Positions 3,675 to 30,643 of a DNA stretch of 64,000 nucleotides are shown here, piece after piece. This DNA is from Hoplostethus atlanticus (taxonomy: Eukaryota > Chordata > Actinopteri > Trachichthyiformes > Trachichthyidae), in contig JAXDDX010000292.1 in assembly GCA_034670405.1 (NCBI GenBank), forward strand, positions 62,001 through 126,000, in the 5' to 3' direction. A program made the translations under genes and the position numbers. How positions within the stretch are numbered: the stretch's first letter is position 1; each line of letters begins with the position of its first letter. The notes under the pieces are model-generated. The model was not told where the DNA came from. It saw nothing but the letters and a program-made list of their open reading frames with translations, and did no database searches.

Positions 3675-5351
3675 TCAATTTGCAAAAGAGTCGACAAGAA
3701 TTTGTCTCCTGAACCGGTTAGGCTTAGATGGTCTCCCAGCATGGTTGTCACGGACAGAGACAGTTTTAGACCTATATCGGGGTTCTTCCCTATAGTCGTC
3801 AAAATAGCGTCTGTCTTCCCTCTGGTTTGGGTTGCGACTATAGCTCCTATTGTTGTAGGAGTTATTGGACTTAGGACGCATAGGGCCATTTGGCTTGCTT
3901 TCTGGTTGTAGAGTAGATGGCTGTAGTTCACCCGGCTCATGGTTGTGAGCATCTTCAAATTCCATTGTCAGCTTTTGGGTGTCAATGTGTGGAACTGAGT
4001 TAAGATCCGGATTCTTGCCCGAAGCTATTCTTTGTTTAATGAAGCCTCTGAGAGCCAACTCACGTAGTTGGTGGCTTGACAAAGATCGAGGGCAAGCTGA
4101 CACTCCATGATGGTGACTGGTGGTTCGGTGGAGGTTTTGTACGAACAAGGATTTGAAGTTCAAGTCCTCCTCCATGTTTGGTTCATTTCTGAAACCAAAG
4201 TAAGCTTTTCGCAAGCGATGATAGTACTGTTGTGGCAGCTCTTGCCTTCCCTGTTTGATGGCCAAAGCAGCTGTCAGGCCAGTCTCCATGCTGGTGATAG
4301 AGAACTCCTGCATCAGGGATTGACATACCCGCTCATAGTCGTCCAGGATGTGTGGAGGTTGTCTTTCAAGGAAGCTACTTACCTCACGGCTGGACGTTAC
4401 CTTGATCAGGTAGATTCTGTCATCTACTGTGGCCTGTGGGAATTTACGGAGGTAGAAGTCAATGTCTTTTAGGTAGGTATAGGTGTCCTGGGCACCCATT
4501 GGACCTGGCTCGAACCTGGCAATGTTACGAGCAATTTTATCCAATTCCCTGTCAGGCACGCCTTGGGTGAAGGCCGCGTCTGTAATTGCTGATGGTCGGG
4601 ACCTCTCAGTTTGGTCTGACCACTGAGTGGGCAGAAAATCTGGATGAAAGGTATCATCCCAGTGGGGTGTGCTAGAGGACCGTGTCCTCTGAGGAGGCAA
4701 TATCTCTCCATCTAGGTCACTTTGCTTAGGTAGTGAGAGGGAACTAACTTGTTGCTGACTGGGTTCATCCACCAGCCGAGATCTTAGTTCACCTTTGACC
4801 TTCACTATCTCACCGGTAGCCTCTTCACACTGGCTTTCCAACCTTTCTTGATACCTTTGGACATTGCTTGACTTTCTACCCAGTCCTTGCACTTTGGCAG
4901 CTTCAGCTGCAACCTCTGTCTTGAGAGCATCTATCTGAGTTCCTATCCCCATTATTACCGTGAGGACGCTACTCAGCTGCTGCTTACTTTCATCTCGCTC
5001 CCTTTTGAGCATTGAATTCTGTTCATTCATTTCTTTCTGTAGTGCTTTAGAGATTTCCTTCTCTTTGTCTAATTGTTCGCGTGCTTGTTTAAAGTCTTGG
5101 CATAGGCGTTGATTGTCCTGCTTCAACCTACTGTTCTCACTACGGATTGCTTCCATTTGGTCCTGTATTTGATCAGTCTCTTTGTCAATTAGCTTGAGTT
5201 GAGCTATCAAATTTAGAACCATGGTACCGAAGAGTTCACTGCGGGCGCTACCTTTGACTGTCTTACTCACTCCTGGGATTATGAGCTGTGACATCATCTG
5301 GTTAAGCTCTAAAGTGTCAAGGTTGTTGACAACTGCAGCAGGGCCTAACAT
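3675..5351 (-). CDS. gag: Retroelement Gag with long coiled coil and Arg-rich tail
   Basis: Uninterrupted 558-residue minus-strand ORF. Residues ~50-190 are heptad-rich and charged, predicting a long coiled coil. Residues ~280-440 look like a retroelement capsid: an aromatic-rich helical region and a major-homology-like motif QGRQELPQQYYHRLRKAYF. There is no CCHC zinc knuckle; instead the last ~80 residues are rich in Arg, Asn and Tyr (NNRSYSRNPNQREDRRYFDD), which may bind nucleic acid as Arg-rich Gag tails do. A decayed env follows on the same strand after about 0.4 kb, and no pol was found between them, so pol has been lost or was never in this copy. The family is not recognised beyond 'LTR-element Gag'. 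Confidence 0.7.
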   Translation of the reverse strand: MLGPAAVVNNLDTLELNQMMSQLIIPGVSKTVKGSARSELFGTMVLNLIAQLKLIDKETDQIQDQMEAIRSENSRLKQDNQRLCQDFKQAREQLDKEKEISKALQKEMNEQNSMLKRERDESKQQLSSVLTVIMGIGTQIDALKTEVAAEAAKVQGLGRKSSNVQRYQERLESQCEEATGEIVKVKGELRSRLVDEPSQQQVSSLSLPKQSDLDGEILPPQRTRSSSTPHWDDTFHPDFLPTQWSDQTERSRPSAITDAAFTQGVPDRELDKIARNIARFEPGPMGAQDTYTYLKDIDFYLRKFPQATVDDRIYLIKVTSSREVSSFLERQPPHILDDYERVCQSLMQEFSITSMETGLTAALAIKQGRQELPQQYYHRLRKAYFGFRNEPNMEEDLNFKSLFVQNLHRTTSHHHGVSACPRSLSSHQLRELALRGFIKQRIASGKNPDLNSVPHIDTQKLTMEFEDAHNHEPGELQPSTLQPESKPNGPMRPKSNNSYNNRSYSRNPNQREDRRYFDDYREEPRYRSKTVSVRDNHAGRPSKPNRFRRQILVDSFAN

Positions 5352-6091: not shown

Positions 6092-6844
6092 GCCAATCAA
6101 TATTGTAGTCCAAATCTTTCCAAACCTATTTCAATTACAAGTCCAAAAGTCACTACAAATTCCTAAAAGCTTTTAAAATGGTCACTGAGTATGAAGGCAT
6201 GTCATTATATTAATATAGCGTTTGATTCTGAAATAGTTATTAGTCATCCACTAATAAACTGTGTCCAACGCATCAATAGGCTATGGTCAAGCACTGGTTG
6301 TGTTTGGATAAAGCTAGTTGTAGCAACTTTGTGTCACTAGGGGACTTCCTCACTTAATCCGACAGTGACTCACTGACATAAGGGAAACAATAGGGCCTAT
6401 ATGTCCGGCCTGTGTAACAAGTCAAATGTCAGTGTGAAAGCTGAGTTTTAAATGAAAATCACCACCAAGCACTTAAGCACATGCGAACTCTACAGAAAAC
6501 ACACCAAACTAATAGGCTAATATAGCGTGTGTCTGAACAGGAACAATTCAATCAATAATAGCCGTCAGGCTAATAACCAAAGCGACCGTCTAGGTCAATG
6601 GAGTTAACAGCTAAGCTAACTTTATGGCACTTAGCCTAGCACTGCTGGACTGCAGATACCAGCATCCACTACGGGTTTCAAATTACAGCGTCTCCGTACC
6701 TGGACTACGGCAGCTAGTAATAAACGTCACAGACCCATACGGTTAGACGTTACACCCAGCAAAATGGCGACTACTTGCAAACAAAGAGTTATTTTCGCGC
6801 TGGAAACAGATCCCCTCTGTTGCACAATGTCAGCACTTTTACAT

Positions 6845-7140
6845 TCACATATATATTCGCTGCATAGGGGGTTAGTTAGAGAACATCGTCTAGACTATAC
6901 CTTTCCCTAAAAGCAGTTTTACCTTTCTATAAGCAGAGATTTCTTCATCTGCATACACACAAGTCTATTCACTGCATAGAGGTGTGTTTAGAGAACATCG
7001 TCTAAACCATCCATTTTTCCTGAAAGCAGTTTTGCCTTTCTATAAGCAGAGATTTCTTCGTCTGCATACACACAAGTCTATTCACTGCTTATATACACTG
7101 CATAGAGGTGTATTTAGAGAACATCGTCTAAATCATCCCC
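6845..7140. repeat. Minisatellite, ~113-126-bp unit, about 2.4 copies
   Basis: The word gagaacatcgtcta recurs at about 6878, 6991 and 7117, each followed by related sequence with 'aagcagttttrcctttctataagcagagatttcttc'-like blocks. The last spacer holds a 13-bp extra block (cttatatacactg). Such repeats are common in LTR U3 or leader regions. Confidence 0.85.
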
Positions 7141-7675
7141 TTACACTCTCTCCTATCGTTGTCCACAACAATTTCTCCTAACTCAGGTAGCTAATCTGAG
7201 TATAGATGAGAGCGGAGAGTCGAACAATTCACAGAACACCCCAGAGCATCGTGGGCAGTGTCTCGAATTATTCTGAAAGCCTAATAACAAAAATGTGTCG
7301 GACTCCGCCGGCACTGGTGCACGCAAAATATTGACAAGGCTTAAAACGCCTAGTTCTATTGGTAAACTATTAAACTAGTTACCACAAGCGTCCAAAATGC
7401 ACTCGCAGCTTTCCTGTTAAAACTCGACGTCTTAACGTCGGGACGTAACACTTATCACTCACTAGTGTAAACTCTTTACTGGCAACTCTTTCTCTCAAGT
7501 AGGTATTAGATTATGTGTTACTCGCTCACAGACTGCTCCTTTTTCTGAGACTTGCGTGCTACTGCAAACCACTACTGTTAATAAGCCACTATTTCAAGTT
7601 TCATATGCATTGATATACATTGGACATGAAAATCAAGGTAGATAATTTGAATTCTCCTCACACGGAGGGCACCAA

Positions 7676-8000
7676 TGATGTAGTGTGTTGAACTTCGTTA
7701 TGAACGATGAGACTATTTGGTCAATTCTGAAAATTGACAATTATTGAAATTATTCTTAGTAATTAATATCTTATTAATTAACACTTGCGGGGCACCACCA
7801 GTTTACACTGGAATAGTCTCTTTATGATGATATCAGTCTAATAATCAGAAGAAGTGAGCTCTAGATTTCAGTGATTTTCTACCTTCATGTCCAGGATATA
7901 TCAATGACACACAAAAGCCAGTTCTTTATAAATGCAAAGATTTTATTAACTATGTAAATAAAACACTAATAAAATGAATACATGTATACTAAACTAAAAC
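7676..8000 (-). repeat. Probable LTR end with candidate primer site (2-9 kb element)
   Basis: On the minus strand a TATA-like box (TTTATAAAG, about 7926-7934) is followed ~250 bases later by a CA end (7676 or 7679) and, after one or a few bases, by TGGTGCCCTCCGTGTGAG (7657-7674), which has the TGG start and spacing of a primer binding site. I cannot assign it to a tRNA. The outer LTR boundary is unresolved; sequence up to about 9.0 kb could belong to it. Confidence 0.35.
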
Positions 8001-8044
8001 AGATAATGGCAATAAAACTGGCAAACAAGATAGCAAGATAAACA

Positions 8045-8107
8045 GTGGCAGAGGATATATCAAATAAGGTAGGAAGTTAAACAGTGGCAGAGGATATATC
8101 AAATAAG
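8045..8107. repeat. 39-bp direct repeat
   Basis: The block aacagtggcagaggatatatcaaataag occurs at about 8041 and 8080, a partial tandem duplication. Confidence 0.85.
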
Positions 8108-9600
8108 AGTGGCCAATGATATTGGGATCAAAGATGGCAAGGAAGTTTGCACCGACAAAACGACCTGAGCTGTAATACGCCTAACTGCGGCAATGTGGCA
8201 ACATGAAAGATGGCGTGGAGGACAGCTGACAGTTTCCGGGAGACTTGGGACAGAAGGACAGAGAATAGTGGAGAGAGAGAGAGAGCGAGAGTATTCTAAC
8301 CTCACTTTCACAGTTCAACACTGCCTTTGCATCACCCGTGCATCAACAAGAAAGTTGGTTACCGTCTGGTTTGCAGGGTGTCAGCGGCGTCCTCGTCTCC
8401 ATGGTAACCGTCGCGCAGTCGCAGTGGACAGGTAAACACACGCACGTGTTGGTCTGGACCAGTCGACGTCAGGAGGGCCGTTGTGGAGTGCGGTCCGGGG
8501 GCCGTTGTTCGTCGGCGTCGTCGTGCCAACAGTTCACCTCAGTGGAGATAGAGGGATAGGGCGATGTGTTGACTCACGTCGTTCAGGAAGCAGAGTAGAG
8601 TAGCGGCTGGCTTCTGACGTGGCTTTGTAGTCTTCTGGATCAGGTTGAGTGAACTCAATCGGCCGTCTCGGCAAGATTCACTCTGGAGCTGGTCTGGTAC
8701 TTGAGCTGAGAGAAGAGCTTTGAGCCAGGTTCAAACTTAGTTACAGGACGGGCTGCGGAACGGGCTACAGGACGGTTGAGTTGAGTTTCTTGATGTTCCT
8801 TGATGTTTCTTGATGTCTTTCCGCCTGAGTTTTTACCCGTCCGCCCGTTGCAGGAGTTGTCCTCCTTTGTTCGTTCGAGTTTGTAAGATTTCGTGTGAGT
8901 TCTCACCGTGTTCTGGGGTGTTCAGGGCTTTATGGTATGTCAGGAGTGGTAGGTGTTTCCCTCATTTGAATGCATCAGATTTACAACTTGATGACCGGTG
9001 ATCACCATCCCCTAAACTGCATTTCCAGCTCAGGTTTGGAAAACATCATTTTTCTTGATCCTTTGGGGATGCAAGTGACATATTTAATCACCTAACAACA
9101 AATGGGTTTGAATGACACCAAACATCACTGTCTTACCACAAAATACTGGCGAGTAAACCAAAAGTCCTGATAACACATTCTGTGTGCCTTGAATAACCAA
9201 GATACTACATTGGGGAGTAGGGCACATCATCTGCCACAGGATGTGAAGTTTAAATCTAATAAAACATATAAAGAAAGCACATTTTTGCAACACATTCCAG
9301 AGTTTCTTTGTTCTCTTATTCTGTGTCTCCCTTGGAAGGCAGATTAGGTACATTTCCCCGGCCCTTATCATCGGTCCCATCTCCTAATGGCACCAGAGCG
9401 GGCTAGTCGAACCTGCAAAGTGTTACTTTTGGCAGCTTTATGGGGGAAATCCACCTTTTACTGCAAAGGGGGTTCCTTGGGTTCCTGGGAGCACAGCAGG
9501 GGTCTTGACCTCATAGGAAGACCCTGGGAGAGGAATGTGTTAGTCTTTGGGTGTTGCTGTGGTCCGAAGAGGGGGGGGGAGGCTGATCTCTCCTGCATAC
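8108..9600. other. Unassigned region
   Basis: Several short ORFs on both strands, none with recognisable domains. A (GA)n run sits near 8270-8292. Nothing else could be supported. Confidence 0.3.
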
Positions 9601-21540: not shown

Positions 21541-22744
21541 GGCCCATAATAATAATAATACATTGGACTTATATAGCGCTTTTATAAGTACCCAAAGACG
21601 CTTTACATGGAGGGGAGAACAAACAAAACAAAAAAGAGCAAACAAAACAAAACAAACAGAACATTTTAGTAAAAAAGAAAACTAGAGAAGCTGTATGGAA
21701 CAAGTCATGGAATGGAGGGAAGGGAGAGAAAGGGAACAGGGGTTAGCAGGTGAAAGCGAGTTTGAAGAGGTGGGTTTTGAGGGCTCGTTTGAACGATGGT
21801 AGGGTGGGAGCCTGGCGGATGTGGATGGGGAGGGCGTTCCAGAGGGAGGGTGCAGCAACTGAAAAGGCCCTGTCACCCCAGGTCCGGAGCTTGGTCCTGA
21901 TGGTCTTGAGAGTGTTTGCATCGGCGGACCTGAGGCAACGGGTTGGGGCGTGGCGGGGGAGGAGGTCTGAGAGGTAGGGAGGGGCCAGGTTATTTAGGGC
22001 TTTGTAGGTGGTGAGTAATATTTTGAAGTCAATCCTGTATTTGACCGGGAGCCAGTGGAGGTTGTGGAGGACTGGGGTGATGTGGTCACAGCGACAGGTG
22101 GAGGTGAGCAGTCGAGCGGCAGAGTTCTGGACGTATTGGAGTTTATTGAGGATTTTGTTGGGTGAGCCGTAGAAGATGCTGTTGCAGTAATCCAGTCTGG
22201 AGGTTATGAGGGCATGGATAAGAATTTCGGTGGCGGCAAAGGACAGGGAGGGCCGGAGGCGTGCAATGTTCCTGAGGTGAAAGAAGGCAGTTTTGGTGAT
22301 GTGGTTGGCGTGGGATAGGAAAGAGAGGGTGGGGTCGAGGATGATTCCGAGGTTACAGACCTGGGTGGAGGGGGTGACGTTGGAGCCATCGATGGTGAGA
22401 GAGAAGGTCTGAGCTGAGCGGGTGAGGGAGTTTGGGCCGATGATGAGTATTTCTGATTTATTGCAGTTGAGTTTGAGAAAGTTCTGTTGCATCCATGATT
22501 TTATATCAGTGAGACAGGTGGTGAGAGTGGAGTGGGTGGCTGAGGTGATGGTCTTGGAGGAGAGGTAGAGTTGGGTGTCATCAGCGTAACAGTGAAAATG
22601 GAGGCCATGTCGACGAATGATTTGTCCAAGGGGAAGGATGTAAATGATGAAGAGGAGGGGACCAAGCACGGAACCTTGGGGGACACCATGAGTGACTGAG
22701 GAGGTGGAGGATTTACAGTTGTTTATGGTGATGAATTGATCACA
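21541..22744 (-). pseudogene. L2-like LINE, 3' half of ORF2 and tail
   Basis: The 308-residue minus-strand ORF (21743-22669) carries the [13 protein letters not shown] turn and the [13 protein letters not shown] catalytic motif of LINE reverse transcriptases, then the thumb and the C-terminal [12 protein letters not shown] and [11 protein letters not shown] segments. Coding sequence extends upstream to about 22740, where it ends abruptly (5' truncation). After the stop the 3' end has 'tatatagcgcttttataagtacccaaagacgctttaca'-type sequence and finishes in (TAA)n at about 21548-21560. The ORF is intact over its length but lacks the endonuclease and most of the fingers. It is inserted in the gypsy pol between codons of a conserved motif. 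Confidence 0.8.
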
Positions 22745-22811
22745 TCACATCAACCTTTGATTCGGAGTTTGAAAAGAATGCACAAAGTTTAATGGGTTAT
22801 GATCAGTATAT
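22745..22811 (-). pseudogene. Gmr1-like gypsy, RNase H fragment between LINE and DNA transposon
   Basis: Minus strand reads TDHNPLNFVHSFQTPNQRLM, the RNase H C-terminal motif of gypsy elements. The sequence joins 30068 in frame across the GTATAT target site of the DNA transposon and 21540 across the LINE. Confidence 0.75.
22806..22811. repeat. Target-site duplication GTATAT (left)
   Basis: Identical 6 bases follow the right terminus at 30068-30073. The gypsy pol motif on either side is continuous if one copy is ignored, which confirms the element ends. Confidence 0.85.
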
Positions 22812-22854
22812 TACGGAGCCCCTTAACGGTCATGGTGGGGATTTTTTTTTTGTA

Positions 22855-23045
22855 GCTACTTTTGCATTCCCTCGCAATACTTTTGCATTCCCTCGCAATA
22901 CCTTTGCGTTCCCTCGCAATACTTTTGCGTTACCTCGCAATAAGTTTTGCGTTCCCTCGCAATACATCTTGCGTTACCTCGCAATACATTTGCATTCCCT
23001 CGCAATACTTTTGCATTCCCTCGCAATACTTTTGCGATCCCACTA
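22855..23045 (+). repeat. Left subterminal hairpin array
   Basis: Eight full units plus a partial unit of about 21 bp with core TTGCRTTCCCTCGCAA; the arms TTGCG and CGCAA are complementary, giving a 5-bp stem and a 6-base loop per unit. Variants carry TTGCA or TTACC. These are candidate transposase-binding sites and also lie just upstream of the transposase coding region. Confidence 0.9.
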
Positions 23046-24726
23046 CTCTTGCTCTATTTGCCACTCTTGACCAGCTCATCGAATTCTACTTTGAACATTA
23101 AATATGCGGATATAGTTTTACTGCTTAATGATAAGCATGGCTATGTAATCAGCGACAGTAAACTTCGACAAATACTTAGAATGAGAGGACTCTCTAAAAG
23201 AAAGCAGTACAGTATTCTGCAGGATGCTATCGATTTTATTCGTGGTCAGTTACTGCACTCCGGACAACTACACGGATACACGTGTACATGGCCTACGAGT
23301 GAGAAAAGAGGATGTCCGCTTAATTCTCAAAGAACTGGATCCGAGGGGGGTTACACTGAGGAAAAGGAGACGTCTATATAGACGCAATTATTTCTCAAAG
23401 GGACCAAATTTCATTTGGCATGTTGACTCTTACGATAAACTCAAGCCCTTTGGCATTTCTGTTAATGGCTGCATTGATGGCTTCTCCACGAAAATGATCT
23501 GGCTGAACGCCTATACCACCAGCAGCGATCCCAAGGTAATAGGGGGGAATTATGTTGAAGCCGTGCAGCGCCTGAAAGGATGTCCACAAGTTGTGAGAGG
23601 GGACCTTGGTACAGAAAACGGACATGTGCGGGACTTTCAACGTCTTCTTCGGCCCAACCAACCTCAAAGTATAGACAGTTATTTGGAGGGGGCAAGTACA
23701 GCCAACTAAAGGATAGAATCCTGGTGGGGATGTCTGCGCAAGGAGTGCATAGCTTTGACTGACCTCAAGGATAACGGCCTATTTGATGGAGGTTTTTTGG
23801 ACAAAAGCCTTGTGCAGTTCTGTTGTATGGGACTAATCCAGGTGAGATGAAGTGATAGCCTAACGTCATGTTTGGTCTGTGTAGGTCGTTGTTTACAAAC
23901 AAGGCCTCCCTGCGTTTTAGGCAAAATTCAGTGGTGGAAGAAGTACGTAGATCCTATATGGAAAAGGTTACTTTAGAGCCCAAAAATTAAACCTTCACAG
24001 TGCCTGCTTTGTCCAACTAATTGTCTAAATCTTAAAATTATTACAAGGAAAAGCAGCACATCCTCACATTGGAGATGCTGGAACCATGATATGTTGATAT
24101 CTTTAACATGAAAAATGACTTGAATGATTACCAAAATAGTTTTTTACCAAAAAGTATTAAGTATATGAAGGTATAGGTATTCAGATCCTTTACTCAAGTA
24201 GAAGTAGCAATGCAACAACGAACAAAAACACTACAGATAATATACCTGGATTAAAAATTCTTCATTCATTAAAAGTACACACGTATAATCAGAAAGATCT
24301 AATTAAAGTACATAAAATAAATAAAAATCCCCATTATACAGAATGATTCCTTTCGGTGAGGTATTACTATATATTATATTATTATTATGGTCATAAATGT
24401 GTTAGAAGCATTTTATTGTTGTAGTTGGTGAAGGTGGAAAAGGTGATGGTGATAAAAGTGGTGATACAAATTTTGCATTTTACTCTTCTAGGATGACTTG
24501 GACGAGACTGCACAGGTGTGGTCTTCACACATCATCAGGCCATCGAAAAAAACGAATGTGCCAAGTGGCAGGCCCAGCATTATGTATGTGTAACCTATTA
24601 GTACTGATGAACGAAAACAAGAGAATTCACCATTTATAGATACCTAAGGTTTATTTCCTCACAGGGTCTGAGACCACTGAATGTCTTGAGTTCAAAAGAA
24701 AATATATTCTTTGAGCTGTAGCGTAT

Positions 24727-24755
24727 GAAAAAAAAAAAAAAAAAAAAAAAAAAAG
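24727..24755. repeat. Poly-A run
   Basis: About 29 consecutive A bases inside the transposase-gene intron. Confidence 0.95.
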
Positions 24756-24984
24756 GACATCAGTATATATCAGTTTCTATATTGACATGAAAAGAAATAC
24801 AAAAAATATGTATTCACATACAATTGACAATACCCACAATTTTACACTGTGTACACCTTGAAGCTGCAGCTGCTATGGTTGTGCGCAACCCTAAATTAAA
24901 CTATATAAATTGAGGTACCCCTTTTTGCTAATTAAATATATATATTTATATCAAAACGAAAAGAAACTCCAAAGTTTCAAGTTC

Positions 24985-25112
24985 AAGTGTCCTCCTTGAA
25001 TAAATGAACAGACGATAGTCCCAAAATACACTGTCTTACTTGAAGGAATGAACAGATAGTCCCAAAATGCGCCGTCTTACTTGAAGGAATGAGCCGACGA
25101 TAGTCCCAAAAG
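24985..25112. repeat. ~48-bp tandem repeat, three copies
   Basis: Units sharing 'gaatgarcmgacgatagtcccaaaa' and 'cgtcttacttgaag' recur at about 25004, 25047 and 25087, inside the intron of the transposase gene. Confidence 0.8.
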
Positions 25113-25662
25113 GTAACGGAAAAGTGCTCCCTCCAGCGTCCGTGACGTCGTTGGCAGGAAGGCTCTTGATGACAATGCTCAAAACATGACTATCATGAAA
25201 AATGATATTTCACATGCACTAACTTTATCTATGCTAAAAGAGTTAGCGGCAGCGCTGGTCTGCATAGAGTAAGCACAACGTGGTTACAATTAACGTAAAA
25301 TCACACCGCTGCTGAAAAGTTACCCAACGTAAAACAAAGTGCTACTTGCCTGACGTTCTCTTAAAGTGGTACCCACCCTTTTAATGTAGACTAATGTTAG
25401 TAAAAGGGAAATATGCATGGGGGTTACATATGCATTACCTGAGCTCTATGGAACCAGGGACTATCTCTCACCTGTTGATGACAATGATCTTCAAATGTGC
25501 AGAGCTGCATGCACCTTTCGCCAAAGCGTTCCATGCGACCAAGACGTGTATGACATATGCAACATGATCATGGCCGAATCACGCCTGGTTATTCCAAGAG
25601 ACCCATATGAAGCAATAGACTTATACATACATTTGAGAGATGTTATTCTTGCTTTTTTGTAA

Positions 25663-26973
25663 TTGGCCTACTCTTAACTAAGAGCTGCACCTATGAGCAG
25701 ATGGCACATCAGGAACATTTTACTTCTGTCATGTCTTTGTTGTTTGATATTTTCCAGATACCCATGCAGTGCTCAGTTTTGTTGTTGTCTAACTAGACAA
25801 AATTCAATGTTTTCTCAATTACCTCCTGTCCATCTTTTTATCGTATTGTAGTTTCTTATTCAGTGATACAGTAATCTATACTGGCCCCACTTTTGTGTCC
25901 TCCTTTCATTTGCCTCACTTTTTTTTGGACTGTCTTGCTTTAGTGCTTGAGATGGGGTATTTACTGTGAGGCTTATCTTTTTCACAAAATGACAAGACAA
26001 TGTTGTAACACCTGGTGCCTACATACACAGTGCTCAAGAAAAATGCTATGTCCTTTGTGTAATGATATGACGAAATACATAATTCTGACCTATCTCTCAC
26101 TTGTACATACTAGATTGTCTGGAAATAAAGAATCATATCTTAGGTATCTTAGGTCCTTGGCTTTCGTACAACCTCTAACATTAGAGTGTGACTCATAGAT
26201 TTCAGATATACTGTCAGTTCTGGTAGATGTGAATTAATACTTGCTTTTCAAGCCATCCTAACACAACAGCCATATCACCACTGAGGGCTCTACTGACAAT
26301 ACCCCTCTACTCTCTGACCAAACCACTACAGTGATGATGAGAACCATCAGTGCAATGCTACTGTAATATCAATATCAATTAATTACATGAATAATGAATG
26401 AAAGCAGCAAACATTTAACAAGTGAAACATATTATTTTCTTGAATTCAAACATCAAATATGAAAATACACTGGCCACACAGTGTAAACAGTGTTGTTAAA
26501 AAAAAAACAGCACTTGACTCTAATTCATAAACTGCCTTCCTGAACAGTGGCAAATAGCTGAATGATTTTATAACATGTCTATCAAATCATGTCTAATGTA
26601 GCTTCATGAACTGGCATGAACAACTACCCAGATCATTGGGTAAAATGTATTTAAGTCACTACAGTAGCTAAAGCCTGAGTGCTACAACATGTGTGAACTC
26701 AATGAACACAGATGAGTATGAATATTGCAGTTGAGATACTACTGCACATATCAAAACATCAAAACAAGCTAGAGATGCTCATGTTAATACATTTAGCATT
26801 GTTTATGAACAATGACCTTATATTATGTCCATGGCAAAGAAGTTAGCAGATAGAACATTATCAAACTCTGTTCGGAATTCTGGGTAGGAGCTACAGTATA
26901 TGTATAAGGAATCTCAATTATGGCTCCGCACGTATGTGCAACAGGCCTTCGACCAAAACCAGACTCAGCTGAG
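25663..26973. other. Spacer between the two convergent transposon genes
   Basis: AT-rich, with no supported ORF beyond short shadows. It would hold the 3' ends and polyadenylation signals of both genes. Confidence 0.4.
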
Positions 26974-28767
26974 TCATTCATTTTGGTTGATGTTGGTCTG
27001 AATTACTGGGAGTTCACTTATCACGTTGAGGTATGAAATGTCGGCATTGTGTAGGGAATGAATGAATACTGTGCTTAGGTGCTCTGCAGTATCTGGTGTG
27101 GAATGTTGAATTGGACCTAAGAACTGCACATCATCTGCCATGTGGTGGTGCACTGGACTTAGGAGCTCTGCTGCATCTGGTGTGGGGTGCTGAACTGGAC
27201 TTAGGGATGCCACTTCATCTGCTACTGAGTGCTGCCGTGGACCTGGATGTTCTGTTGCATCTGGTGTGGAGCTTTGCACTGGATTTGTCATAGTCAAAGT
27301 CACATTGGTGGAGATTCTATGTTGGCTGTGTTGATCAGACTGCCTGGGCTTTTTCGGGTGCTGTTAAAAACGAATTAAAAAAAATTAAACAAAATTATAG
27401 GAGGTTGAGTTTTACAGGAAAAACATTTTTACAATCTAACCATTACTGTTTATTTTATTTACAAAGGGGTTGAAGTAGCCTGATATTGAAATGCATGCAT
27501 CACATTAATCTCTGACACCTACTAGAACTACAACATAGTCACAGCCTGTATTACACTGGCAATCCATACAGTTAGGGCTGCAGCTGATGATTATGTTCAT
27601 TGTCTATAAATCCACCAATTACTTTCTCAAATAATTGATTGTTTTGTTTACATATTGTCACAAAAGTGTGAGAATTACAACTTCCAAGAGCTCAAGCTGA
27701 CATATTAAAATATTCAAAGATATTAAGTTTACTATCATGTAATGACAGAGGAAAACAGCAAATCTTGAAATTCAAGAAACTGGAAACACTGATTGTTTGG
27801 CATTCAATTACCAAAATAGCTGCTGATTCATTTTCAACAATTAATCAACTAATTGTTTTAACTCTACATAAAATACCTGCTCATAGCTTTCAGTGTCATC
27901 TGAATAATCTGAAACCAAATGCACGCTGTCTCTTGTGCAAAGGTAAAGTCTTAACATTTTTAATTTTGATTGTTCATAAAGTTCCACAAGTGTAGCAGTC
28001 ATTGATACTGCCTGTTTCTTGAAGTCACATATCAAATGTAAAGTCCTCGACAGATCCTTTAGGTGACTGGCCTTTTGGGAAAAAGAGATCCTTAGCAGTT
28101 TCCATGATCTGTGTGACTGTAGTGTTCTTGTCCAGTGTCAGATGCCTAGTTCCACCTCCATTCGTTGACCTCACTTGATGAAAGGCATCTTTCTGATAGT
28201 GCAGCCAGCCCACTTCAATTCTCTGTGTGGTTCTTAGGGCATTGCTGTTCTTGTGTCTTGCCATCAGAGCGACACTTTGCGCAGAGGAAGATTCTCCAAG
28301 AGATCTTGTCCTCCTCCCCATCCTTCGTGCTGCAATCTTTTGGCGTATTCTATCTACAACTGCTTCTTGGTCTGTATTTGTTTCCATCTGTCGACAAAAT
28401 GAGAGAACTGCCAAGCGGTTGCCATATGAAGGGATATATTTAGCCATTTCTTCGTCTGTCATAACAGAAATGACAGCTCTGTCAATCTGCAATTAGAAAT
28501 AAACAAATTATTTCCCTCAAATAAATGTAATAGATTTTAATTAAGTACAATATAATTTTGCCATGGATAATTTAAAAAGACAGTGTACAGACATTTATCT
28601 GAAAAAATATACAGCATATTGAAAATGTGTTCATTGGTCAATATAGACTGCACAAGTTATAAGTAATAATCCAATAGTTAAATAGGTACCTTGTCCATTT
28701 TCATTCTGTGTATACTGTCTTCAGCAACATTCCTAGACCTCAGAAATTCCTCAAGCTCCTCCTCCAT
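26974..28767 (-). pseudogene. Accessory gene of the 7.26-kb transposon, E3-ligase-like N-terminal domain
   Basis: Three minus-strand exons are read: 28690-28767 (26 codons, starting MEEELEEFLRS), 27877-28486 and 26974-27360, with GT/AG junctions in phase. Exon 2 starts IDRAVISVMTDEEMAKYIPSYG, a SAM-like helical stretch, then GGGTRHLTLDKNTTV. This combination resembles the N-terminal domain of fish proteins annotated as G2/M-phase-specific E3 ubiquitin ligase-like; no HECT catalytic domain is present here. A one-base deletion near 28027 shifts the frame before CDFKKQAVSM. Exon 3 encodes about 2.5 copies of a degenerate His/Pro/Asp-rich repeat (PVQHPTPDAAELLSP). It converges with the transposase gene, and the right array lies upstream of it. 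Role unknown; protein-protein contact or regulation of the transposase is possible. Confidence 0.6.
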
Positions 28768-29913
28768 GTCTACAAAAAGCAGAATGAAGCATAAAAAGAT
28801 CTTTACATGAGCAATTATACTTTAATTGCCAGACAGTTCACAACACATTGCATATACAGTAGCCTACACAAGATAAATGGAAAGTGAGTCACACAAAACA
28901 ATGTTACAAACACAGATCCACAATTAACAGATCCACATCCACACAGGGTCAAATATCCTCAGACGAATGTGTCAACTCATAAGTAGTAAAGTGCATATAC
29001 CAGAAACCAGTCTTCCCCAGTTCATAGTCAGTAGGCCTACTTGAAACTTTTAAAACTAACCAAACCTGTCACAGGGTGTGGAAAAATTCATAATTCTGGA
29101 TCTTGTCTCACACTGTCAGACAGGCCAAATTGATATACCGTATAATGCTGCGATGTCCACAAGGATAGTGCAGGGATGGTGATCTCAGGAAGACAAACTA
29201 TATGCATGGTAATGCCTGCATGATTGTAATGACATTTACGTGGCAAAAACTGCTGCTATAGTGTTATTACTGAACACAAAAAACTTCTAATGGGCTAATC
29301 AAAGCCCGCTGATTGACAGTGCTTGCTTGTAAGTTACTGTAATTAAACGTTTAGATGCAGCAATAACGAAAAGACAGATGTCTTCACACAAGTGTGAAGA
29401 TAGATTACAAAACTCGAGAGTAGGCCGAGATAACTGGTTAGGGTTGTGGTACGGTTAGGATCAGATTAAGCATCATAAAAGACGGCTGGTTGGGGATAGG
29501 AATGAGAATGATTTCAGGTTCAGGTTCAGGGGAAACACATAGGCTGCCGACGGGGAACAGACTCGACCACCTACTCCAGGGCCGTTTAACCCATTGGCTG
29601 TCACCGCTCATCGTTTTATGCTATATCTCACTGTGAACATCCATGCATTAGTTCATTTGCTTCCACAAGCTTAGCGCTTTTAGCTAGGTTAGTTTGTCTA
29701 CCAATAACACCCTTAACAAAACAACGTTAACAAATCACTGCAAGCAATGACATTCCGTTTTTATCAACATTAGACATTACAACTATGTTTACCTGAAAAT
29801 GGTGCATGCCACTACACCATCCAAAATATAGAGCCAGGGCCAGATAAATTGCCAGAGTTGCACGGAAAGCCTGCGTGTAACTGAATGATCGTGCATGTGG
29901 TGAATGTCGAACT
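28768..29913. other. Upstream region of the transposon's accessory gene
   Basis: No ORF supported; it lies between the first exon and the right subterminal array and probably holds the promoter and 5' UTR. Confidence 0.4.
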
Positions 29914-30024
29914 TTGCGAGGTAACACAAAATGCATTGCGAGGGAACGCAAAACGTATTGCGAGGGAACGCAAAATGTATTGCGAGGTAATGCAAAAGTA
30001 TTGCGAGGGAACGCAAAAGTAGCT
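29914..30024 (-). repeat. Right subterminal hairpin array
   Basis: Five units of the same ~21-bp hairpin motif as the left array, inverted, with core TTGCGTTCCCTCGCAA and variants. There are fewer copies than on the left, so the two ends are asymmetric. Confidence 0.9.
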
Positions 30025-30067
30025 AAAAAAAAAAAAATCCCCACCATGACCGTTAAGGGGCTCCGTA

Positions 30068-30643
30068 GTATATACCACCAAAGTGACCAAACATAGACAT
30101 CAAAATGGTGAAGGGCCCAAATGAGAGCTGAAAACAAGCTCTTCACTTGGTCAAATGCCTGCTGACAAATTGGAGACCAAACATCAGCCTTCAACAACTC
30201 AGTTAGTGGGGCCACTACAGAAGCAAAATTGGCACAGAATCCACGGTAATAACTGACCATCCCCAGGAAACGTAACAACTCCCGCTTAGTGGATGGAACA
30301 AGAAATGCCTGTGTTGCCAAAACTTTTGCATGAATGGGACGAACCTCCCCTTGTCCCACAACTTTACCCAAATAGATTACTGTGGCTTTCGCAAACTCAC
30401 ATTTGGACAGGTTGATAGTCAAGTGGGCCCAAACCAGCCTGTCAAATAGAGCCTGTACTCTCTTAACGGTGTTCTTCCCACGTGTCACTATAAATTACCA
30501 CATCATCCAGATAAACTGCACAGCCTTCCAACCCACTCACAACTTTGCTCATTAACCTCTGAAATGTGGCTGGGGCATTTCGCAGCCCAAATGGCATGAC
30601 TTTGTAAGAGTATAGACCTGTTGGTGTCACAAAAGCACAAATC
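30068..30643 (-). pseudogene. Gmr1-like gypsy RT palm/thumb and start of RNase H
   Basis: Minus-strand frames give [20 protein letters not shown], then [19 protein letters not shown] with the YLDD catalytic box, then after a frameshift near 30480 the region SKCEFAKATVIYLGKVVGQG and FLGMVSYYRGFCANFASV. The RNase H start (first catalytic Asp region) is missing: the frame passes from QVKSLFS directly to ALIWALHHFDVYV, an internal deletion. Non-functional. Confidence 0.8.

Follow-up and report, generated by a model that had tools for sequence, protein, structure and literature searches.

A 7256-bp element at nt 22812–30067 of the window, that is, the whole 64,000-nt stretch of contig JAXDDX010000292.1 of Hoplostethus atlanticus that was analysed, is taken as a whole very probably best explained as a broken cut-and-paste transposon of the IS3EU/GingerRoot type, with a gene for a HECT ubiquitin ligase convergent with its transposase gene. 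The same gene pair was present in six families of this genome, and comparison of their sequences indicates that the HECT gene is probably a recurrent accessory gene of these families that was maintained by selection. The ends, the duplication length, the type of transposase and the lack of an HHCC motif agreed with the published marks of IS3EU, and the element was therefore placed in IS3EU/GingerRoot. Related proteins are denoted below by P numbers and genomic loci by L numbers.

Element ends and insertion site

The coordinates given in the first-pass annotation, made from the sequence alone, proved exact. The ends comprised the following features, TIR standing for terminal inverted repeat and TSD for target site duplication.

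22806–22811: TSD GTATAT, left copy
22812–22851, plus strand: left TIR, beginning TACGGAGCCCC, 40 of 40 bases the same as the right end
22862–23026, plus strand: left subterminal array, eight units like TTGCGTTCCCTCGCAA, imperfect palindromes at 21–22 bp spacing
29914–30016, minus strand: right subterminal array, five units, inverted relative to the left array
30028–30067, minus strand: right TIR, 40 of 40 bases the same as the left end
30068–30073: TSD GTATAT, right copy

The two TSD copies of 6 bp were exact and the terminal motif was TACGG..CCGTA, so that the inverted ends and GTATAT duplication reported earlier were confirmed. Within the window the 18-base TIR end was found only at the two ends of the element, even when up to 4 mismatches were allowed; in the 632.8-Mb genome (1161 contigs) it occurred exactly at 16 sites, versus none for a reversed control. 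The subterminal units, for which 200 mononucleotide shuffles averaged 0.02 matches, are probable binding sites of the transposase.

When the 200-base flanks were joined in silico minus one GTATAT, they read TLVVYTDHNPLNFVHSFQTPNQRLM in one frame and then a stop, in agreement with the in-frame empty site noted earlier. We take TLVVYTDHNPLNFVHSFQTPNQRLM to be the RNase H motif of Ty3/gypsy elements, and the window copy appears to have inserted into a Ty3/gypsy pol region. The element was full length from end to end, yet both genes were broken; the description "complete" thus applies to the span between the ends and not to the genes, neither of which was open. Adjoining the interrupted Ty3/gypsy stretch was a reverse transcriptase fragment (nt 21746–22744, minus strand; PF00078, E 2.8e-17), which we read as similar to a long interspersed nuclear element.

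Transposase gene

23091–23841, plus strand: exon 1, DDE integrase core, with a frame break and an in-frame stop (PF24764; tblastn to P0001; reading frames)
23842–24491, plus strand: inferred GT-AG intron
24492–24588, plus strand: exon 2, first part (reading frames; tblastn to P0001)
24589–25428: nested insertion of 840 bp with TGTAACC..GGTTACA ends, flanked by TATG on either side; lacking in the related copy L041
25429–25662, plus strand: exon 2, second part, to the stop codon

A profile search, which the first-pass annotation had called for, bore out its integrase-core transposase, the core matching PF24764 with E 1.4e-14 and 54.7 bits versus a cut-off of 26. Three lesions were present: the frame break, the in-frame stop, located just before the catalytic E, and the nested insertion. 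A second intron was ruled out for the stretch occupied by this insertion, which is missing in L041. The insertion held three internal 41-bp repeats, and its ends and duplication presumably recall a non-autonomous Ginger1-like element.

A protein search with the read-through query (E ≤ 0.001) returned 542 proteins, of which the best 120 were examined; many of these were fish proteins, others belonged to echinoderms, molluscs and a few other animals, and many were unnamed metagenome entries. The closest among them was P0001 from Channa striata, with 68% identity to the window transposase, to which it aligned in four pieces (tblastn); besides the integrase core it carried a Clr5 domain at the N-terminus. 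Likeness to bacterial IS3/IS481 transposases is a further mark of IS3EU/GingerRoot; the sole NCBIfam matches of P0001 were IS3 (E 0.0084) and IS481 (E 0.069), both far below their cut-offs. The D, D and E residues were present in six of seven loci, the second D being replaced in L039. No relative of P0001 or of the gene 2 relative P0122 was found in the viral contigs searched.

An integrase-like core would also suit a relative of Ginger1 or Ginger2, but the HHCC pattern of Ginger1 (H-x(3-7)-H-x(20-36)-C-x2-C upstream of the core) occurred in 0 of the best 120 of the 542 relatives, some of these being partial sequences, and the 6-bp duplications differ from the 4 bp of Ginger1 and 4–5 bp of Ginger2 given in the consulted portion of PMC10045372. 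Such kinship is hardly credible. Three transposase relatives, P0011, P0035 and P0102, are named SLAM family member 8, Tetrathionate reductase subunit B and ADP-sugar pyrophosphatase in public records, which are probably annotation errors.

Second gene of the window copy

28690–28767, minus strand: exon 1 (MEEELEEFL...)
27877–28486, minus strand: exon 2, remainder of the predicted helical head and ubiquitin-like domain, with a frame break near 28027
26974–27360, minus strand: exon 3, linker, with a stop at the deletion junction; 58% identity over 81 positions to P0152
26818–26963, minus strand: remnant of the HECT C-terminal lobe with the cysteine motif RRPVAHTC, in two frames, then a stop (tblastn to P0147)

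Gene 2 started at nt 28767 and was convergent with the transposase gene, its three inferred exons having GT/AG borders, as expected from the convergent spliced gene proposed before. The lobe remnant, which lay directly after the linker stop, shared 58% and 79% identity with residues 528–573 of P0147 (tblastn). P0152 shared the linker and continued into sequence aligning with the start of the P0147 HECT region; as estimated from relatives, about 365 codons are probably missing between linker and last lobe. Thus, apart from the frame break near 28027, the main defect was loss of most of the HECT domain: the head, the linker and the last lobe with its cysteine were kept, the middle was lost, and only the last lobe, in two frames, stood for the domain. 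The "E3-ligase-like N-terminal domain" of the first-pass annotation was incomplete: the gene is that of a HECT E3, with most of the catalytic domain deleted in this copy.

With the joined exons as query (X at the frame break), 32 relatives were found. In their layout, a predicted helical head and a ubiquitin-like domain are followed by a linker and a HECT ubiquitin-ligase domain. Against a Pfam cut-off of 23.9 bits for HECT (PF00632), P0147 scored 31.9 bits (E 1.4e-7), L039 29.4 bits and P0145, below it, 22.3 bits; no Pfam HECT match was obtained for P0139, P0140, P0150 and P0152, P0140 being without any Pfam match. The catalytic Cys of the C-terminal lobe was present in five of the six loci retaining the position (window, L039, L046, L047 and L050), and L041 lacked this region. 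The predicted structure of P0122 (mean predicted local distance difference test score, pLDDT, 77) showed five helices followed by a ubiquitin-like fold, the fold comparison covering residues 89–213; the helical head may conceivably be a SAM domain. HECT domains were the best Foldseek match of the P0147 model (best E 7.1e-6, at low confidence), and a sequence search of solved structures gave no match to gene 2.

The gene pair in other families of the genome

The genome contained at least 109 transposase matches, counted as exon pieces, with 106 of 266 candidates scored. Eleven further transposase loci, picked for their transposase or TIR, irrespective of gene 2, were read, making 12 with the window. 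A convergent HECT gene was detected at eight of them: the window (as a remnant), L039, L041, L046, L047, L049, L050 and L052. These eight represented six families with transposases 42–77% identical between families; L050 and L052, and likewise the window copy and L041, were copies of the same family. The gene 2 copies of the latter two lacked different parts.

Two of the other families could be delimited at both ends. The L039 element was 6277 bp long, with perfect 23-bp ends TACGGAGCCCGGGAAGTGACATG (TACGG..CCGTA) and TSD GCGCTG; the L046 element, whose ends were ranked by TIR and duplication jointly, was 7077 bp long, with 20 of 20 end bases matching (TATGGAAGCCCATTTCCGCC, TATGG..CCATA) and TSD CCATGT. 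These two-ended elements, with inverted repeats other than those of the window element, held the same gene pair, which upholds the earlier view of a cut-and-paste element with an accessory gene. The L046 element had 7 and 11 subterminal units, different in sequence from those of the window and mostly 21 bp apart, in arrays at 1336–1481 and 7985–8235 of the locus; a period of about 21 bp, or about two helical turns, was seen in two IS3EU families with different repeats.

Six short two-ended TIR copies of 583–775 bp (L002, L004, L007, L042, L043 and L044) were too short for either gene. Four of them had exact 6-bp duplications, in L007 the two flanks differed by one base and in L042 they did not match, which brings the nine two-ended copies to seven exact, one with one mismatch and one unmatched. 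The window element's ends were shared by L002, L003, L004, L005, L007, L042, L043 and L044, and its internal stretch 6471–6810 by L002–L005 and L007, so that deletion derivatives resembling miniature inverted-repeat transposable elements exist. No partner end was found for L003, L005 and L006/L040, and L001/L041 lay at a contig end; inverted ends were not found for L047–L053, where some stretches read may fall short of both ends. The first-pass annotation had held that TIR copies lacking either gene and showing a known superfamily's duplication length would speak against an undescribed superfamily; the six gene-less copies, with duplications of the length published for IS3EU, count in part as such evidence.

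Two loci gave partial signals. In L048, open stretches at 4505–5263 and 6829–7146 (minus strand), convergent with a more distant transposase (C100), resembled a HECT start and ubiquitin-like domain by eye; a read-through piece matched the Pfam HECT profile at E 0.17 only, neither solved structures nor our own profiles gave a match, and the gene was counted as not found. L045 contained part of gene 2 close to the end of a contig, and the stretch read there gave no transposase match.

Probable selection on the two genes

By simple pairwise codon counting, the ratio of nonsynonymous to synonymous divergence (dN/dS) of the HECT region between families was 0.11 for L039-L041, 0.10 for L046-L050, 0.09 for L046-L052, 0.27 for L047-L050 and 0.26 for L047-L052; that of the transposase was 0.08 for L046-L050 and 0.09 for L046-L052. 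For close copies the transposase gave 0.71 (window-L041) and 0.56 (L050-L052), and L050-L052 gave 1.56 for HECT, at a dS of 0.01, and 0.80 over the longer gene 2 alignment. These values fit, on thin evidence, selection on both genes while the elements were active and near-neutral decay later. Pairwise identities of transposase and HECT broadly agreed across loci, L049 excepted.

Several observations weigh against the interpretation of the element as an IS3EU-type transposon with a selected ligase gene. Few between-family pairs gave a finite ratio (HECT, 5 of 20; transposase, 2 of 26), with dS at 1.4–2.2, near saturation, and the longer gene 2 alignment gave higher ratios between families (0.14–0.34). 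The HECT gene was not found at four of the 12 loci (L040, L048, L051 and L053), a statement that for L040, L051 and L053 covers the 5–7 kb read downstream. The L046 HECT scored 13.3 bits, below the Pfam cut-off, the P0147 model had a mean pLDDT of only 55, and L049, the sixth locus with the position, had Arg in place of the catalytic cysteine; its transposase was nearest the window's group and its HECT nearer L047 and L046. No copy with both genes open was seen in the frames read of the window, L039, L041 and L046. As to the superfamily, P0001 reached 15.4 bits with NCBIfam IS3, for which the cut-off is 160, and membership rests on features described in the consulted portions of two papers, not on named IS3EU sequences.

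Possible role of the ligase

The DDE transposase would bind the 21-bp-spaced subterminal repeats and cut at the TA..TA ends, and insertion of the cut ends into target DNA with a stagger of 6 bp would produce the 6-bp duplications. Gene 2, with its predicted helical head, ubiquitin-like domain and HECT ligase in six families, would have been under purifying selection while the families spread, as the limited codon evidence suggests; the window copy has lost most of HECT and carries the 840-bp insertion in its transposase gene.

A gene of this kind could be a passenger, taken up from the host by chance and having no role for the element. Failure to detect it at four of 12 loci, the different parts lacking in the window copy and L041 and the Arg of L049 would suit such a passenger, but the same convergent layout recurred in six families despite the divergence of their transposases (42–77% identity), and HECT dN/dS, where it could be calculated between families, was 0.09–0.27; we regard a passenger as improbable. 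Instead, selection appears to have kept the ligase working, which suggests that the element uses rather than merely carries it. Its most likely role, put forward tentatively, is ubiquitination of those host factors by which the element is silenced or restricted. The main competing role, rather unlikely in our estimate, is an action of the HECT protein on the transposase of the element itself, in turnover or assembly, and not on host defence; the gene pairing kept across families and the similar constraint on both genes in L046-L050 and L046-L052 are in line with it, but the sequence gave no clue to a substrate.

If the HECT gene belongs to the machinery, this is a DNA transposon that brings its own ubiquitin ligase. 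The ligase substrate would then point towards a host restriction step, assayable in cultured fish cells, and some of the HECT proteins listed as "uncharacterized" among the annotated genes of fish would be encoded by transposons and not by the host.

Comparison with known systems

Among solved structures, NEDD4-type HECT ligases shared the HECT fold with P0147 by Foldseek, but identity was 12–17% in most matches listed and template modelling scores were low, with a low-confidence model. Fish proteins such as P0140, P0142 and P0147 could be aligned with gene 2 in the HECT region and the ubiquitin-like domain, and for P0140 and P0142 the alignment included the head, but they are annotated as uncharacterized, hypothetical or HECT domain-containing proteins and not as transposon genes.

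A study of a killifish genome (PMC12763893, consulted portion) counts IS3EU among the superfamilies. As described in the consulted part of PMC10045372, IS3EU families have TA..TA termini, encode an integrase-like DDE transposase and usually make 6-bp duplications, and the HHCC motif is missing from IS3EU, GingerRoot and related groups; the present element shared all these features, the likeness being to descriptions and not to sequences, and HECT is not mentioned in that paper. IS481EU, with TNT..AYA ends and duplications of about 4, 15 or 25 bp according to the same part, was ruled out by the TA..TA ends and 6-bp duplications. The "unidentified superfamily" first proposed did not hold, as the element matches IS3EU/GingerRoot in its TIR motif, the length of its duplications, its type of transposase and the lack of HHCC (PMC10045372 and PMC12730594, portions consulted). 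A likeness by description without named sequences, and a HECT partner absent from the IS3EU literature searched, would favour an undescribed superfamily, which we nevertheless consider very improbable. The literature searched contained neither IS3EU together with HECT nor a HECT ubiquitin ligase encoded by a DNA transposon, and as searching was incomplete, absence from print is weakly supported; G2E3, HECT and transposable element together gave one paper, unrelated by title.

A close parallel to the IS3EU/GingerRoot-type element described here is with the TET-bearing IS3EU of rust fungi. Possibly, a HECT ligase of its own has long been part of a lineage of IS3EU transposons in fish, serving in counter-defence or transposition and being an animal counterpart of the fungal alpha-kinase and TET genes; if so, the element exploits the ubiquitin system of its host, either for moving or for evading silencing. 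The fungal accessory genes encode an alpha-kinase and a TET/JBP dioxygenase, and "ubiquitin" goes unmentioned in PMC12730594, whereas the TAYGG..CCRTA ends, TIRs of more than 30 bp, 6-bp duplications and an accessory gene (there the alpha-kinase) opposite in orientation to the transposase, as described in the consulted portion of that paper, are common to both.

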